Below, in pieces: positions 18,664 through 36,159 of a DNA stretch of 36,159 bases. Numbering within the stretch: the first letter of the stretch is position 1; the number at the start of each line of letters is the position of its first letter. Source of the DNA: an uncultured Bacilli bacterium. Its GTDB lineage: Bacteria > Bacillota_I > Bacilli_A > RF39 > UBA660. Location: NCBI GenBank assembly GCA_944358455.1, contig CALVRE010000028.1, positions 1 to 36,159 of the forward strand. The letters run 5' to 3'. The notes beneath the pieces are model-generated. The model saw only the letters and a list, made by a program, of their open reading frames with translations. It ran no database searches and was not told the origin of the DNA. Both the position numbers and the translations under genes were made by a program.

Positions 18664-18760
18664 TTCTTATCAAGAGAGGCAGAGGGAATAGGCCCTACGA
18701 AGCCCAGCAACCTACCGAATGGTGTGGTGCTAAATCCTACGGGAAACCGATAGATAAGTA
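18664..18760 (+). promoter_or_regulatory. SAM-I (S-box) riboswitch
   Basis: P1 is CTTATC (18666-18671) with GATAAG (18753-18758). The S-box conserved blocks are present: AGAGAGGCAGAGGGA, GAAGCCCAGCAACC, GGTGCTAAATCC. SAM binding stabilises P1. The 3' arm TAAGTA (18755-18760) can instead pair with TACTTA (18769-18774) as antiterminator. Confidence 0.97.
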
Positions 18761-28892: not shown

Positions 28893-29246
28893 GTGAACAA
28901 GGTAGAACTAATTACAAAAAGTCAAATTAGAAAAGATTTACCTGAATTCCGTGTAGGAGATACTGTTCGTGTCGATGTAAAAATCAAAGAAACAGACTCT
29001 AAGGGTGTTGAAAAAACAAGAATTCAAGCATATGAAGGAATTGTTACAGCAATCCAAGGTAGCGGAATAAGCAAAAACTTTATCGTACGTAAGATGTCAA
29101 GTGGTGTCGGAGTAGAAAGAACATTCCCTGTAAATTCACCTATTATTGATAAAATTACGGTTGTAAGAAAAGGTAAAGTTAGACGTGCTAAATTACATTA
29201 TTTAAGAGATAGTGTAAAACAAGCAAAAATTAAAGAAAGAAATTAA
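28893..29246 (+). CDS. rplS: 50S ribosomal protein L19
   Basis: 117 residues, full length. Starts with GTG at 28893 after [23 protein letters not shown], the [13 protein letters not shown] segment, and the C-terminal [12 protein letters not shown] are standard L19. L19 sits at the 30S-50S interface. The structured leader upstream probably lets L19 repress its own synthesis. Confidence 0.97.
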
Positions 29247-29270
29247 TAAGGCCGTGAGCCTTATTTTTCT
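29245..29270 (+). terminator. Terminator of the rimM-trmD-rplS unit
   Basis: AATAAGGC (29245-29252), loop CGTGA, GCCTTATT (29258-29265), then TTT; overlaps the rplS stop codon. Confidence 0.82.
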
Positions 29271-29288
29271 TAAGAAAAGAGGAAAATC

Positions 29289-29783
29289 ATGAAATATGTA
29301 AAAGCTTGTATTCCTTATGTCATAATTGTTGCAGTAGTACTTCTTATTAGAACTTTTATTGTTACACCAGTACGTGTCAATGGAACTAGTATGGATCCTA
29401 CATTGCAAAATAATGAAGTATTATTATTGAAAAAATACGATCATAATTATTCTCGCTTCGATATTGTCGTTTTGAATTATAATGGTGAGAAATTAGTAAA
29501 ACGAATTGTAGGACTTCCAGGAGAGCATGTCAAATATGAAAATAATATTCTTTATATCGATGGAGAAGTCGTGGAAGAACCATTTTTAGATGATTATACA
29601 AGTGATTTTGATCTTACTAGTTTAGGTGTTACGACGATTCCCGATCATTACTATTTTGTCATGGGGGATAATCGAAATAATTCAACGGATAGCCGTATTA
29701 TTGGACTAGTATCAAAAGATAATATTATTGGTAGTACCGATTTTGCTTTATTTCCTTTTTCTCGTTTTGGCTCTATCAAATAG
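29289..29783 (+). CDS. lepB: Signal peptidase I
   Basis: 164 residues, the short Gram-positive (SipS-like) type. One N-terminal membrane helix (about 8-26), then box B GTSMDPT with nucleophile S34. Box D is KRIVGLPGE with general base K71, and box E is MGDNRNNSTDSR. Removes signal peptides from exported proteins such as the surface proteins in this window. RBS AGAGGA. It follows rplS after a terminator, as in several Bacillota. Confidence 0.95.
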   Translation: MKYVKACIPYVIIVAVVLLIRTFIVTPVRVNGTSMDPTLQNNEVLLLKKYDHNYSRFDIVVLNYNGEKLVKRIVGLPGEHVKYENNILYIDGEVVEEPFLDDYTSDFDLTSLGVTTIPDHYYFVMGDNRNNSTDSRIIGLVSKDNIIGSTDFALFPFSRFGSIK

Positions 29784-31400: not shown

Positions 31401-32846
31401 ATGGATCAAGAAAAAATTGGTAAGTTTATTGCCAAGCTTCGAAAAGATCACAATATGACACAACAAGAACTAGCAGATCGATTAAATGTGACAGATCGGG
31501 CGGTATCGCATTGGGAAAATGGAAGAAGATTTCCAGATGTTTCTCTTTTTAAACCAATATGTGAAATATTTGATATATCAGTCAATGAACTGATTAGTGG
31601 TGAAACCTTAGCGCAAGATGAAATTGTGGAAAAGTCTGATGAACATATTATTCATACTTTACATGATCGTGAAAAGCAACAAAGAAAGTCTAAAATCATC
31701 ATTGGTATGTTATTACTTAGTATGATCGTTTTGATCACAATCGTAATTGTGAGTATACAAAATAAGTATCCGAAAATCGATCTTTATAATTTTACGATAT
31801 CTCCTGCGGATTCAGATAAGCCTTATACTTTGACAAAAGTATTCTCACATCATAACCGAAATATTTATTTTTATGGCATTGATTCAGCCCTTTTTTATGA
31901 TTTAAAAGAAAATTATTATCCAGTAGTAGATGCTTTAAAACACGATCAGACGACTTTAGATAAAGTTCAAGATTATTTGGAAAAACAAGCCGAATATGAA
32001 AATGTTGAAATCAGTATGTTATACGATGGTGGAACTACCATTTATAAGAAGGCAGGAATGACGGTAATTTATTGTAATACGACAAATGGTAATCACGATG
32101 TTTATATTGGTAATAGTGAAATGTTGGATCATTTAAATGGACAATATTGTGGGCATGAGGAAAATCCAAATCAAAGTTATATTAGAACTTATCAAGTAAT
32201 CAGTTCTGTTATCAATAAAGATAATCCTGGATTTAATGATGTTTTGTTAGAACAAAACAATGGAGAAAGAGGATCTGTAATTATAAGTAATACGTATCTG
32301 TTAATACCGGGAAAAACATATGAATTTTCTTTCTTAACATTTGATCAATTCGATGATACAATCGAGAATATCTTTCAATATTCAACATTACTTAAGGTAA
32401 TAGAAACGGACAAAAGTAAAGAGGATTATATCAATGATTCGATCATCGTAAATGACATTTTTGATCATGGAGAAGAATTAAATGATTTAGAACATGTTAC
32501 GATGACAATCAAAAATGGTACATTAACCAAAAGAGGTGCGACAATCATGATTCTGGATCTTAGTGGAAATCAATATATGTATGGTTCTGACTTTCGATTA
32601 GATAAAAAAGAAAATGGTATTTGGCATGAACTAGAAAATCAATGCGATAATTGTGTTTTTAATTCCATGGCATATGGCCCTGATCTTAATGGATGGTTAC
32701 AATTTGATATTGATTGGGAGAAGATGTATGGCAATTTATCAAATGGACAATATCGAATCGTCAAAAGTGCGCTTTCTTCAAAAGAAAATTGTCATGAAAC
32801 GAAATGTCATCATTATTATTTATCCGTAGAATTTACCATCGATTGA
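31401..32846 (+). CDS. Membrane-tethered XRE regulator with extracellular Ig-like domain
   Basis: 481 residues. The XRE helix-turn-helix is at 5-62 (MTQQELADRLNVTDRAVSHWENGRRFPD). A single membrane helix at about 97-120 follows a short linker. The outside part (about 125-481) ends in a domain resembling the bacterial Ig-like Big_14 family (GWLQFDIDWEKMYGNLSNGQYRIVK). A DNA-binding head joined through one membrane helix to an external sensor suggests one-component signalling. Cysteine pairs (CDNC, CHETKC) occur at the end. RBS AGGGAGTG. Probably autoregulated through the inverted repeat upstream. Confidence 0.85.
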   Translation: MDQEKIGKFIAKLRKDHNMTQQELADRLNVTDRAVSHWENGRRFPDVSLFKPICEIFDISVNELISGETLAQDEIVEKSDEHIIHTLHDREKQQRKSKIIIGMLLLSMIVLITIVIVSIQNKYPKIDLYNFTISPADSDKPYTLTKVFSHHNRNIYFYGIDSALFYDLKENYYPVVDALKHDQTTLDKVQDYLEKQAEYENVEISMLYDGGTTIYKKAGMTVIYCNTTNGNHDVYIGNSEMLDHLNGQYCGHEENPNQSYIRTYQVISSVINKDNPGFNDVLLEQNNGERGSVIISNTYLLIPGKTYEFSFLTFDQFDDTIENIFQYSTLLKVIETDKSKEDYINDSIIVNDIFDHGEELNDLEHVTMTIKNGTLTKRGATIMILDLSGNQYMYGSDFRLDKKENGIWHELENQCDNCVFNSMAYGPDLNGWLQFDIDWEKMYGNLSNGQYRIVKSALSSKENCHETKCHHYYLSVEFTID

Positions 32847-32883: not shown

Positions 32884-32973
32884 TGATTATCTAAGTTTTG
32901 TCCATTATTACATTTTACTAGTTTACTATAGATAGGTCTTACATCAATTGTACATTATATTTACTATTTATCG

Positions 32974-33019
32974 AGTAGATGATATCTACTTTTCTTTTGT
33001 ATATAAATTATGATATAAT
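32974..33019 (+). promoter_or_regulatory. Terminator-promoter cassette, copy X
   Basis: Hairpin AGTAGAT (32974-32980)/ATCTACT (32984-32990) with T-run, overlapping a promoter TTTCTT (32991-32996), 17 nt, TATAAT (33014-33019). The same arrangement with similar sequence recurs at 35447-35496. Apart from this and the relic frame below, I see nothing coding in 32884-33147. Confidence 0.6.
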
Positions 33020-33044
33020 GAGCTTAATTGATCAGTAGTAATAG

Positions 33045-33137
33045 GACTTTCAACTAGTAAAGTTACCAAAAGTTAAAGATAGAGTAAAACAAGATAAATG
33101 GTATAAATCAAACTTTGCTTTGTTATTAAACCAATAA
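33045..33137 (+). pseudogene. Possible gene relic (30-codon open tail)
   Basis: After a stop codon, a frame reads DFQLVKLPKVKDRVKQ and then DKWYKSNFALLLNQ before TAA. The composition looks coding, but there is no start codon or RBS. It lies after the promoter at 32991-33019, so it may be the end of a decayed gene. Not assigned to a family. Confidence 0.25.
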
Positions 33138-33162
33138 ATAGTAATCTGTGGAGATGGTTATT

Positions 33163-33573
33163 TTGAAAAAATATACGCAAGTAATAGGGATATGGTTTTT
33201 AATTATACCTTTGGCTATTATAAACGGGGGAATAAGGGAACATATATTAATCAAATTAGGAAATATTGCATTACCATTAAGTGGAATTATTTTAAGCATA
33301 TGTGTATTTATTGTAGCATATTTGTTAATACCTAAAGTAAAAAATTGCAAACCAAAAGATTATATTATGTTTGGAATCATCTGGTTTGTTTTGACAAATT
33401 TATTTGATTTGTTCATGTATATTAGTGAAGGTGGTGGAATCAAACAATTATTAAATTCATATAACTTCTTAAATGGGAATTTATGGATCTTAGTTGTCAT
33501 AACTACACTTGTGTCTCCAATAGTAGTATCAAAAATAAAATGGAAGAAAGAGAGAGAAATAAAAAATGTATAA
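33163..33573 (+). CDS. Small four-helix membrane protein
   Basis: 136 residues if the TTG at 33163 is used, which has GGAGATGG seven bases or so upstream. An ATG at 33154 and a GTG at 33148 are in-frame alternatives with poorer spacing. Four hydrophobic segments are visible: IWFLIIPLAIING, PLSGIILSICVFIVAYLLI, MFGIIWFVLTNLFDLFM and LWILVVITTLVSPIVV. The tail is basic. No family recognised. It overlaps the next small gene by 8 nt, so the two are coupled. Confidence 0.65.
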   Translation: MKKYTQVIGIWFLIIPLAIINGGIREHILIKLGNIALPLSGIILSICVFIVAYLLIPKVKNCKPKDYIMFGIIWFVLTNLFDLFMYISEGGGIKQLLNSYNFLNGNLWILVVITTLVSPIVVSKIKWKKEREIKNV

Positions 33574-33724
33574 AACGGTTGTTATAGAGTATTCACCAAA
33601 AGCAGAAGATATGGCGCAAAAAGTAGAAGAAAAAGCAAATGAAATGTTACAAGAAGGTTATGAGCTCGTTACGATGTCAATTACTGGAACAGCAAAAGCA
33701 ATTTTAGTATTTAAAAAAGGTTAA
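33566..33724 (+). CDS. DUF4177-like small protein
   Basis: 52 residues: MYKTVVIEYSPKAEDMAQKV, then a helix, then GYELVTMSITGTAKAILVFKK. The beta-helix-beta pattern with EGYELVTMS...ILVF is that of the DUF4177 family of short single-domain proteins. It overlaps the preceding membrane-protein gene by 8 nt and precedes a lipoprotein by 18 nt. RBS is the purine-rich AAGAGAGAG. Function unknown. Confidence 0.7.
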   Translation: MYKTVVIEYSPKAEDMAQKVEEKANEMLQEGYELVTMSITGTAKAILVFKKG

Positions 33725-33742
33725 CGAGATGGAGGAATGGAT

Positions 33743-34291
33743 ATGAAAAAAATATTATTATGTTTGTTTATGGGGGTTGCGACCCTGGGATTAATTGGAT
33801 GTGGTACGGATAATGTAGAAGAACAGCCACAAGATCAAGTGCAAGAATACGGCCATGTCGAAAAAGAAACAGCAGAAGTATTAGTTGCAAAGTTTAATAT
33901 GGAGGTTGTTGATAATAGCTCATTAAATCCAGCATCTAATGATTACTTAACTACTCATGAAGATGCATACTGGTATGGTTTAGTTACGGGAGTGTATTTA
34001 ATTGTCTATCCAATCGAATATACGGGAGATCTGAGTAGCGATATTGTGGATTATATGGTTTTGTATGTTGAAAAAAATAGTGAATATGAATCTAATGTTA
34101 GTGAATATATGGAATATTTAATCAAAGCAAATAACCCTGATATTACAACTGAGGAAATCAATAGTTTAATAGTGGCAGCTAAGAATTCAGCTTCTTATGG
34201 TACAACGGTTAATAATGGAAAAGGAATTGATGTTGGTTATATTGAAAACGAAGATAACTATCAATATCAGGTTATTAGATTATATAAGTAA
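33743..34291 (+). CDS. Predicted lipoprotein
   Basis: 182 residues from the ATG at 33743; an ATG at 33737 is only one base from the GGAGG motif, so the second is preferred. Type II signal peptide with lipobox LIGC (Cys about residue 20), followed by an acidic Glu/Gln linker. The rest is mixed helix and sheet with no recognised domain. Its neighbours are small membrane and unknown proteins, consistent with an accessory cell-surface cluster. Confidence 0.72.
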   Translation: MKKILLCLFMGVATLGLIGCGTDNVEEQPQDQVQEYGHVEKETAEVLVAKFNMEVVDNSSLNPASNDYLTTHEDAYWYGLVTGVYLIVYPIEYTGDLSSDIVDYMVLYVEKNSEYESNVSEYMEYLIKANNPDITTEEINSLIVAAKNSASYGTTVNNGKGIDVGYIENEDNYQYQVIRLYK

Positions 34292-34308
34292 TATATTTAG
34301 GTGAATTT

Positions 34309-34974
34309 ATGAATTATTATCATATGACATCGTTAGATAGATTAGATTCGATTAGTAAAATTGGACTTATCCCAAGAAATGAAGACAATAGTAAATTAAT
34401 TGATGATAAAAAAACAAAAGTGTTTTTTTCAGAAGGTTTTGCAGGAGCAATAGCGTTATTTGTTGATTTTGAGATAGTGTACGAGAATATTAAATGTGGG
34501 AAAATGAAATCTGCAAATAAAGAAATAGAAGAAAAAGTGCTAAAATCAAAGAATCTATCTGAATTTCTTGGAGAAGGAGTTTATTTACAATTTGATGGTA
34601 CTGATATAGAAAATGAAAGAAATTTTGAAAATGGATGTACTAGTAAAGTTGTTCCTCCAGAAAAGTTTTATGTTAGTGTATTGAAAAGTAAAAAAAGTGA
34701 TTCAATTATATTCTCAAGATTTGAAATCATTAAATATATGATGTCAAAAATAACTCCGGAAGAAATTGAATATTACGGTGTGAAATATAAAGATTCTCCC
34801 AATTTTATTGATGCTACAATCAGGATACAAGAAAAAGTAAAAAGGTATTATATTTCACATAGACAGGAAATAGAAAAATATAGAAATAATGATTATTGGT
34901 TAGAATATTTATCTGTTACAGATTTTGTAAAAGAATATTTAAAGTCAAATACAAATTCTGATTTAACAGTCTGA
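34309..34974 (+). CDS. Unknown protein, possible ADP-ribosyltransferase fold
   Basis: 221 residues. The N-terminus YYHMTSLDRLDSISKIGLIP, followed by KVFFSEGFAGAIALF, resembles the start of ART-fold enzymes such as KptA-, DarT- and DUF3990-like proteins, where an early H-x-T and a later S-x-G/A segment hold NAD. A candidate catalytic Glu appears late (VVPPEKFY or TPEEIEYYG) but cannot be assigned. No signal peptide. There is no antitoxin gene of recognisable type beside it; the small downstream genes are membrane proteins. Homology is suggestive only. Confidence 0.6.
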   Translation: MNYYHMTSLDRLDSISKIGLIPRNEDNSKLIDDKKTKVFFSEGFAGAIALFVDFEIVYENIKCGKMKSANKEIEEKVLKSKNLSEFLGEGVYLQFDGTDIENERNFENGCTSKVVPPEKFYVSVLKSKKSDSIIFSRFEIIKYMMSKITPEEIEYYGVKYKDSPNFIDATIRIQEKVKRYYISHRQEIEKYRNNDYWLEYLSVTDFVKEYLKSNTNSDLTV

Positions 34975-35009
34975 TATTAAAATAGTAGGTTGTAAGTAGG
35001 AGGTATTGT

Positions 35010-35204
35010 ATGTTAATTACAGGAATTTTAATTACAATAGTTGCAATTTTTATGTTATTAGTTCCTCAATTTTTTATGAAACTTAAAAGTCCTAGAATTC
35101 CAGATCAATTATTAAAAAATCCTAAAATGAAAATTATTCTTAGAATATGGGGTGGAATTTTTGTAATAGTTGGAATTTTATTAATTGTTTTCTCAATTAT
35201 TTAA
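35010..35204 (+). CDS. Small two-helix membrane protein (DUF6199-like)
   Basis: 64 residues with helices at about 2-22 and 44-63, joined by a basic loop (KLKSPRIPDQLLKNPKMK). The layout resembles the DUF6199 group of tiny membrane proteins; assignment is tentative. RBS AGGAGG, start 35010, well formed, so the gene is probably real. Confidence 0.6.
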   Translation: MLITGILITIVAIFMLLVPQFFMKLKSPRIPDQLLKNPKMKIILRIWGGIFVIVGILLIVFSII

Positions 35205-35239
35205 TAATAAATTGCAAACTTATGGATATATGTAAGATT

Positions 35240-35431
35240 ATGAAAAAAAGAAAACTTACAGGAAATGATATAGGAATTGTTGCTTCTATATTGGGTATAA
35301 TAGCAAGTATTATATTGATAATATTGAATTTAATAGCCAATGACAACTTAACAATAGGTATTATTTTATTATGTAGCTGCTCTATTACTTTAATAGCAAA
35401 TATTAGTCAGAGAAATAAGCTGGGAAAATAA
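35240..35431 (+). CDS. Small two-helix membrane protein
   Basis: 63 residues from the ATG at 35240 (MKKRKLTGNDIGIVASILG...); an ATG at 35222 would add six residues. Two hydrophobic segments (about 9-30 and 35-52) and a basic end. No good ribosome binding site is visible for either start, which lowers confidence. Lies 35 nt after the preceding small membrane protein and just before a terminator. Confidence 0.5.
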   Translation: MKKRKLTGNDIGIVASILGIIASIILIILNLIANDNLTIGIILLCSCSITLIANISQRNKLGK

Positions 35432-35446
35432 CAAATTCCAATTTAT

Positions 35447-35496
35447 AAAGTAGGTTTATATCTACTTTTTCTTTTCCGAGAAAATTATGTTACAAT
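35447..35496 (+). promoter_or_regulatory. Terminator-promoter cassette, copy Y
   Basis: Hairpin AAAGTAGGT (35447-35455)/ATCTACTTT (35460-35468) with T-run, overlapping promoter TTTCTT (35468-35473), 17 nt, TACAAT (35491-35496). It matches copy X at 32974-33019 in sequence and spacing (TATCTACTTTT, CTTTT, AAATTATG shared). Confidence 0.6.
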
Positions 35497-35524
35497 GAAA
35501 TAGATTTGTGAGGAAGTGATTGTA

Positions 35525-35557
35525 ATGGCAAATGAAGAAAATATTTTCCCCAAATAA
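35525..35557 (+). pseudogene. Ten-codon gene stub
   Basis: A promoter (35468-35496) and RBS GAGGAAGTGAT lead to an ATG whose frame reads MANEENIFPK and stops at 35555. The start signals are full strength, yet the gene ends after ten codons, three bases before an inverted repeat at 35560. This looks like the 5' end of a gene cut by an insertion or deletion. A genuine leader peptide is the alternative. Confidence 0.45.
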
Positions 35558-35559
35558 TT

Positions 35560-35732
35560 GTATCAACTGCTTTATACCGATTTAGTAACCTCCTCCAAAA
35601 AGTCCTTATAAATAAAGGGTTTGCAGGTTTCGATATCTTACACGTTTTTTAAAAAAACAGTAAAAAACGGTTAAAGATGGCTAAAATAGGTGGTTTTTAG
35701 TAAAAAAATGATAAAATTTTTTTAGTTGATAC
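35560..35732. mobile_element. Inverted-repeat-bounded non-coding segment, possible MITE or integration scar
   Basis: GTATCAACT (35560-35568) and AGTTGATAC (35724-35732) are exact 9-bp inverted repeats around 155 bp of AT-rich sequence with no coding potential. The segment follows directly on the ten-codon stub and ends 44 nt before the dinD-like start. It could be a miniature element, an att-site remnant, or chance. No flanking target duplication was found by eye. The rest of 35432-35776 holds only the cassette and stub listed. Confidence 0.35.
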
Positions 35733-35776
35733 CACAAGGTAAACCTCTCATATTATATTTTAAAAAGGAGGGTATA

Positions 35777-36159
35777 ATGAAAGAAGTTGTTAATAAATAC
35801 ACTAGTAAAACTTTTGAAGATATAAAACATATTGATGAGTATGGAGGCGAGTACTCGTTTGCTCGTGATTTGCCAAAAGTTTTCGGATATAAAGAATGGA
35901 GAAATTTCAAAGTAGTAATAGATAAAGCCATTACATCTTGTAAAAAGAGTAAATTCAATGCATTTGATCATTTTGTTGAAGCCAACAAAATGATAGAAAT
36001 AGGTAAAACTGCAAAAAGAAAAATTCTCGACAATAAACTCTCTAGATATGCTTGTTATTTGATAGTTCAAAATGCCGACCCAAGTAAGGAAGTGGTTGCT
36101 TTAGGTCAAACTTATTTTGCTGTCCAAACAAGAAAACAGAAATAACTGAACAAGAATAT
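35777..36159 (+). pseudogene. dinD: DinD-like protein, frameshifted and cut by window end
   Basis: From the ATG at 35777 (RBS AGGAGG; frame open from 35726) the protein aligns with E. coli DinD in its N-terminal half: YSFARDLPKVFGYKEWRNF, DHFVEANKMIEIGKTAKR, LSRYACYLIVQNADPSKEV and GQTYFAVQTRKQ. DinD is DNA-damage induced and inhibits RecA filament activity. A TAA at 36143 stops it after 122 residues, but the shifted frame continues ITEQEY to the window end, which is how the family goes on after QTRKQ. One base appears to be missing near 36139-36142. No LexA/DinR box was seen. Confidence 0.7.

Follow-up and report, generated by a model that had tools for sequence, protein, structure and literature searches.

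A ten-codon reading frame (MANEENIFPK, then a stop) beside a 173-bp segment with inverted repeats was found near the right end of a 36,159-bp contig of an uncultured Bacilli bacterium (GTDB lineage Bacilli_A; RF39; UBA660; GenBank assembly GCA_944358455.1, contig CALVRE010000028.1; the whole stretch is hereafter the window). We consider it very likely that this frame is an orphaned start of the ribosome-assembly gene rbgA, cut off by insertion of a cassette, and that the site belongs to an array resembling the staphylococcal cassette chromosome (SCC) at the 5' end of that gene. An earlier interpretation made from the window alone (the sequence-only reading) had proposed either a gene beheaded by an insertion or the scar of a departed element. 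The former was borne out, since the intact gene, rbgA, occurs in the same genome (contig C4) and in a sister species (G001), and further copies of the segment exist. The latter was not: the insert is longer than the segment, which is its conserved left end, and it continues into a DinD-like gene and off the contig, with the genes of the element still present.

Rereading of the window sequence confirmed the gene start and the segment. The frame runs from ATG at 35525–35527 to TAA at 35555–35557 and is preceded by a ribosome-binding site (GAGGAAGTGAT) and a promoter-like stretch (TTATGTTACAATG). The exact 9-bp inverted repeats GTATCAACT (35560–35568) and AGTTGATAC (35724–35732) span 173 bp end to end. 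Such repeats alone are unremarkable in AT-rich DNA; their significance lies in their recurrence elsewhere. A generic scan of 35200–36159 gave seven promoter-like sites, compared with 5.5 in shuffled sequences, and no terminator, and the RNA fold of 35520–35760 showed no structure beyond chance (z = −0.70). In a DNA search, both the start region (query 1–102, 86 bits) and the segment (query 94–273, 74 bits) matched C4, and strong copies of the segment were also present in other genera. The ten-codon frame was not conserved as a leader peptide, and the segment was neither single-copy nor universal among relatives.

The intact gene on C4 began MANEEKGFQKNSINWYPGHM (MANEEKGFQKNSINWYPGHMAKAKR.., 302 aa) and had the same start and promoter as the stub in the window. 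Its product matched the Pfam 50S ribosome-binding GTPase family, and from its sequence and gene order we take it to be RbgA/YlqF. The usual upstream neighbours of rbgA were found in the window (SpoU methylase, RimM, TrmD, ribosomal protein L19 and signal peptidase; rimM-trmD-rplS-lepB). We took the right end of the window as the left flank of the rbgA locus and C4 as rbgA with its right flank, the middle being unassembled. On C4, the copy of the segment was located approximately 590 bp upstream of the intact start; it follows a further truncated start (MDNRQNSTNIN) and precedes a barstar-like gene. The sister species was 96.5% identical over 5895 bp, from just before the rbgA promoter, and carried a different unit upstream of rbgA in place of the barstar unit. 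This unit follows the truncated start MSNEEKSFQKRNIN and a left end that lacks the middle stretch described below; to judge by sequence, its genes presumably encode a regulator of the GntR type, an ABC transporter and a permease. At insert-free sites, in three outgroup Bacilli and family member G036, lepB was located 490–604 bp before rbgA and the RbgA N-termini were short (MMQIQ, MNNIH, MTVQ and MEKIN).

Across genomes, 146 distinct junctions were listed, most of them preceded in frame by an RbgA-type N-terminus ending I-N or I-Q before a TG dinucleotide. The TG falls inside the conserved ..I-N/Q-W codons and is that of the Trp codon in ..I-N/Q-W-Y/F-P-G-H-M. Among the 128 full left ends (those with at least 120 bp upstream), 104 had an in-frame ATG with a ribosome-binding site 4–20 codons before the TG and no stop, compared with 3 and 27 in the other frames. 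Because related junctions are open up to the TG, the early stop in the window is best read as a later frame change in the orphan start. The starts left behind differed in type from the start of the present rbgA gene. The left ends usually had one layout: half-site 1, a conserved middle stretch with CCTTATAAATAAAGG, and half-site 2 about 145–157 bp on. A profile built from 104 left ends matched the window (Table 1), in which half-site 2 is GTTGATACCACAAGGTAAACC at 35726–35746. The 9-bp repeats, which the sequence-only reading had regarded as the ends of a 173-bp unit, are instead parts of the two recognition half-sites. Half-site cores in the 104 left ends were of types A-A (32), B-B (62) and A-B (1), with no second site found in nine; the core type was thus the same in 94 of the 95 left ends having both. 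The half-site tails also agreed strongly in type B (longest common stretch 7.26 versus 5.14 shuffled, 0/300; 62 left ends), and weakly in type A (6.57 versus 6.18, 17/300; 30 left ends). The middle stretch was missing from the left ends of L034/L131, L100, L165 and L259.

Sixty-six units of 751–4693 bp were delimited, each starting at a junction and ending at the following one or at the body of rbgA; a 147-bp 'unit' had been removed as a false junction. The junction search used a fixed pattern, so that divergent ends were missed and some units may hold two cassettes; the unit of L037 holds two, its first 2583 bp matching the whole L055 unit. The last eight codons were not open in at least 3 of the 66 units. 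Right and left arms matched as inverted repeats at 12.6 of 25 positions, compared with 9.7 for interior 25-mers (sd 0.19, best of four offsets), and at 18–22 positions in the ten best units. In these ten, the recognition sequence encodes part of the RbgA N-terminus, e.g. NKSVIN or YKIGIN. The shared core of joined ends was about two bases (TG). A perfect TATAAT preceded 17 of the 66 right ends (7.1 expected) and five of its six bases preceded 51 (41.9 expected). The terminator motif of the C4 promoter was present in four units. With a perfect TATAAT before just 17 right ends, the idea that every cassette brings its own promoter was rejected. In the examples inspected, the last cassette gene often reached close to the rbgA ribosome-binding site.

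Eighteen unit pairs were similar (at least 88% identity over at least 500 bp), and eight of them matched end to end, TG to TG, with the left flank unmatched in seven of the eight. Nearly identical units stood beside divergent rbgA genes: 97.4% identity beside rbgA genes of 67% identity in L037/L055, 97.5% beside 77% in L127/L170, and 99.0% beside 70% (over 183 bp of rbgA) in L097/L172. Large serine recombinases with Resolvase, Recombinase and zinc-ribbon domains were encoded in 6 of the 66 units. Among the 12 closest relatives of a 412-aa enzyme in 193 family genomes, eight had rbgA on the stretch examined, at most 100 bp downstream in L212, L213, L215 and L216; rbgA was not on the stretch examined for the other four (L039, L209, L211 and L214). 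Additionally, recombinase pairs preceded rbgA in six genomes (G003, G008, G177, G126, G114 and G111); the pair of L221 (566 and 522 aa) ended 56 bp before the rbgA ATG. Four recombinases tested against CcrB scored 77.7–134.1 bits (cut-off 900), and one scored 122.9 bits against CcrC (cut-off 900) and 88.3 against CcrA (cut-off 700). The best match of the recombinases among solved structures was TnpX. Orphan starts, TG-bounded units, the spread of units between hosts and recombinase genes beside rbgA were all recognised by such comparison of sequences.

In the mechanism that we propose, a cassette would be bounded by TG, the TG of the conserved rbgA Trp codon. Its left end would usually carry two recognition half-sites and its right end a new ribosome-binding site and the first RbgA codons, sometimes with a promoter. 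The cassette circle would recombine with the rbgA start at the TG, most likely through a large serine recombinase. This enzyme would come from the minority of cassettes with a recombinase gene, or from larger elements in which a pair of such genes lies immediately upstream of rbgA. Insertion would detach the old start and fuse that of the cassette to the rbgA body, leaving RbgA intact with a changed N-terminus; the old start would stay behind as an orphan, and that in the window would later have lost its frame. We infer the order of insertions, as well as this catalysis, crossover and mobilisation in trans. Because perfect TATAAT motifs are few and the last cassette gene is often close to the ribosome-binding site, the cassette genes and rbgA are in many arrays likely expressed by read-through from upstream.

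Several observations weigh against this interpretation. Ten of the 18 similar pairs had just a portion of the unit in common, so units also have a mosaic character. The left flanks of L097 and L172 were 90.5% alike over 769 bp, which means that the neighbouring unit is shared too, and the right flanks of L160 and L174 were 98% alike over 254 bp. A recombinase was missing from 60 of the 66 units. A unit's own arms barely beat exchanged arms (12.64 versus 12.21, sd 0.18), and the common RQN- and NENK-type right arms were not clear inverted repeats. Of 12 longer recombinases meant as negatives, four (L217, L218, L220 and L221) were also located just before rbgA, so this set was no clean control; rbgA was not found in the stretch examined for the other eight. 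The array enzyme was not found in the genome of the window, in which the nearest recombinase had 39% identity (contig C17) and the middle of the array is unassembled. A left end or recombinase was upstream of only 8 of 25 rbgA loci drawn from family members, two of them weak, and in six further loci of this draw the contig ended less than 700 bp from rbgA. All data are draft genomes, mostly metagenome-assembled, and recombination itself is deduced from comparing them.

The cassettes could instead be inserted by a tyrosine integrase, as reported for streptococcal integrative and conjugative elements (ICEs) of the Tn5253 type, which integrate in the same 5' end of rbgA (PMC8571831, PMC4701971). 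The genome of the window does encode two tyrosine recombinases. However, neither gene was on the window's contig (C28) or on C4, no tyrosine recombinase match was found among 29 array proteins scanned (of 169 open reading frames, ORFs), and joined ends share about two bases, not the 12–54 bp repeats reported for tyrosine ICEs (PMC4701971). Serine recombinases, in contrast, occurred inside units and adjoining rbgA, and we regard tyrosine integration as unlikely. Alternatively, the upstream region could be diversifying through homologous recombination among the repeated rbgA starts and left ends, with site-specific insertion now rare or absent. This would account for the repeated starts themselves, for the ten pairs sharing unit parts and for left ends without the middle stretch. 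It fits poorly with the eight pairs shared exactly from TG to TG, with orphan starts that differ in type from the present start and with the recombinase genes accompanying arrays, and seems to us improbable.

A third possibility, in which the stub would act as a regulatory leader peptide or the segment as a regulatory RNA controlling the next gene, was suggested by 62 of the 128 left ends, where the frame from the TG stays open for 15 codons, in many cases as far as a conserved TATAAATAA stop. The upstream peptides were, however, variable in length and sequence and resembled RbgA N-termini, and the genes behind the left ends were diverse. Folding of the window gave nothing beyond chance, 28 individual folds of a 62-nt portion from relatives had no evident structure in common, and Rfam had no match at the site. 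This candidate was rejected, and we consider it most improbable.

Most cargo genes point the same way as rbgA: this holds for 157 of the 169 ORFs that are 60 aa or longer. One representative was scanned per cargo cluster. At least one of five candidate phage-defence clusters (RhuM 17, Bro-N 13 and 4, YhcG/DUF1016 12, KilA-N 8) was carried by 47 of the 66 units, and exactly one by 42. PADLOC lists these clusters as phage-defence candidates PDC-S05, S13, S02 and S22, and we treat them as candidates rather than proven defences. A DRT-type reverse transcriptase (RT_UG31) shared its unit with a serine recombinase in 2 of the 66 units (L038 10816–13577 and L172). DUF6870 was encoded in 17 units and was associated with the RQN-type right arm (both 14, RQN only 7, DUF6870 only 3, neither 42; Fisher p = 7e-7); the DUF6870-type gene may be an accessory of recombination. 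A small ORF related to DUF6870 genes was located just before the recombinase pair of L221 (3731–3997). In G114, contig C10 carried two serine recombinase pairs, at about 6.1–8.9 kb and 44.3–47.1 kb; genes for a relaxase and TraG stood between the pairs, and rbgA followed the second, an arrangement that may represent a conjugative element that uses the rbgA site. The array contig of G003 likewise had relaxase and TraG genes, so conjugative elements may share the site.

A strict two-part pattern, which the window's own left end does not fit, matched at least 118 stretches in a species-level genome collection; among the 80 listed, most were titled uncultured Bacilli, Tenericutes or Clostridia. 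Sample and species names suggest that the hosts are gut bacteria. A class-wide draw of 395 genomes yielded 12 with this pattern: two belong to family f21 and ten to the window's family, of which 54 genomes were listed. A reversed control pattern gave no match among the results listed. A broad search matched 143 of 193 family genomes at E ≤ 0.01; many of these matches were short and AT-rich and were not counted as copies, and strong matches were relied on. A distant-mode search for the segment found no match in plasmid and phage collections, and a plasmid or phage source was rejected. One stretch from viral contigs (L297, 7594 bp) contained an rbgA-type start and a left end, and no rbgA, lepB, rplS or recombinase match.

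Integrons comprise the integrase IntI and attC gene cassettes, in arrays of small, co-oriented cassettes mostly without a recombinase of their own. The rbgA arrays are similar in part, with small co-oriented cassettes that mostly lack a recombinase. Unlike in integrons, no IntI-type tyrosine integrase was among the 29 array proteins scanned, no attC-like fold was seen in the window or the 28 single folds, and the anchor is a protein-coding gene rebuilt at each insertion. Tentatively, as an idea that we would not yet call probable, the arrays may be the equivalent of an integron built on serine recombinases, serving uncultured Bacilli as a general platform to collect and swap small, mostly recombinase-less cassettes at the rbgA start, many with candidate phage-defence genes. 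Since rbgA must be transcribed, co-directional cassettes upstream would be expressed with it, and the recognition sequence would double as coding sequence for the RbgA N-terminus.

Cassette chromosomes that carry serine recombinases have been described at rlmH (PMC6222049). Like SCC of staphylococci and the enterococcal cassette chromosome (ECC; CcrAB, rlmH 3' end), the arrays involve large serine recombinases, some of them paired, one conserved chromosomal gene and very variable cargo. In contrast to SCC and ECC, they target the 5' end of rbgA, not the 3' end of rlmH. Each array unit replaces the ribosome-binding site and N-terminus, is 0.75–4.7 kb long and mostly lacks a recombinase. Elements carrying large serine recombinases were found (6 of the 66 units, pairs before rbgA in six genomes), and at 78–134 bits these enzymes fall below the curated CcrB cut-off of 900. 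Large serine integrase systems have a 2-bp core and a near-palindromic attP; here the proposed core is TG, and the arms are inverted repeats above background, with own and exchanged arms nearly equal.

ICEs have likewise been described at the 5' end of rbgA (PMC8571831, PMC4701971 and PMC7168690), and PMC4701971 names tyrosine integrases for them. As described in PMC8571831 and PMC4701971, Tn5253 and other streptococcal and enterococcal ICEs share with the arrays the gene, its end and restoration of the reading frame by the element. Tn5253-type ICEs differ in having a tyrosine integrase, 12–54 bp flanking repeats and large conjugative elements (64.5 kb for Tn5253), whereas the arrays have serine recombinases and a core of about two bases, with no tyrosine enzyme in the 29-protein scan. 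In these texts, the N-terminus of ICE-hit rbgA is said to be unmodified except for one added codon in E. faecalis, while N-termini change freely in the arrays. Islands of Dehalococcoides at ssrA also occupy one conserved single-copy gene, and the paper on them (PMC3146451) mentions 'ccr' and 'serine recombinase'; unlike the arrays, they target an RNA gene. By title and abstract start, no description of such rbgA cassette arrays was found in openly licensed papers (preprints excluded), which is weak evidence of absence.

If correct, our interpretation describes a cassette-array system that is based on serine recombinases and sits at the start of a gene for ribosome assembly. Its hosts would be a large group of uncultured bacteria whose genomes measure about 1 Mb. 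The system would offer a handle on their accessory and candidate defence genes, as the sequence between rbgA starts, and related recombinases with many natural attachment sites, in which types TTGATACC and TTGATTAC could be compared. It would also be an example of mobile DNA rewriting the N-terminus of a conserved protein; rbgA is essential in the pneumococcus according to PMC8571831.

Table 1. Features of the rbgA-associated region of the window, with proposed identities.
Feature	Position	Strand	Evidence
rplS (L19) and lepB (signal peptidase), left-flank anchors of the rbgA locus	28893..29783	+	Pfam Ribosomal_L19, Peptidase_S26
Older rbgA-promoter-like remnant	32961..33021	+	82.5–84.5% identity to G001 and C4 rbgA promoters over 58–63 bp
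First cassette content, probable	33022..35425	+	Between two rbgA-promoter copies
Putative orphaned rbgA promoter and ribosome-binding site	35426..35524	+	79–84% identity to regions before intact rbgA, C4 and G001
Putative orphaned rbgA start, MANEENIFPK then stop	35525..35557	+	Intact MANEEKGFQKNSINW.. on C4; open counterpart MANEEKGFQKGSIN in L044/L133
TG junction, proposed crossover dinucleotide	35568..35569	+	RbgA-type starts meet left ends, and shared units begin/end, at TG
Cassette left end: half-site 1, conserved stretch with CCTTATAAATAAAGG, half-site 2	35568..35749	+	Profile match E 4.3e-29
DinD-like (Bro-N) cargo gene, 122 aa	35777..36145	+	Bro-N domain; NCBIfam DinD 178.8 bits, cut-off 242

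The older remnant (Table 1) is probably the leftmost orphan start region, its start no longer being recognisable in the sequence. The probable first cassette content behind it contained ORFs at 33148–33573, 33737–34291, 34309–34974, 35010–35204 and 35147–35431, none of which matched a Pfam family above its cut-off. No left-end match was found for this content, and its left border was therefore inferred. The sequence-only reading had identified the DinD-like neighbour correctly, and this gene belongs to the cassette cargo; the DinD profile match covers only positions 2–121 of 288. The gene ends at a stop 14 bases from the contig end, where real damage and assembly error are indistinguishable. 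Further left, one frame at 31401–32846 combined HTH_3 and bacterial Ig-like Big_14 domains and was not found in G001. A 96-bp stretch at 33627–33722 was 96% identical to the very end of contig C26 (43191–43286), and the adjoining 137 bp of C26 matched window positions 31401–31537 at 82%, so the arrangement of these accessory genes varies within this genome. An S-adenosylmethionine (SAM) riboswitch (RF00162, 79.1 bits) at 18664–18760 (+) was the sole Rfam match of the window at the gathering threshold.
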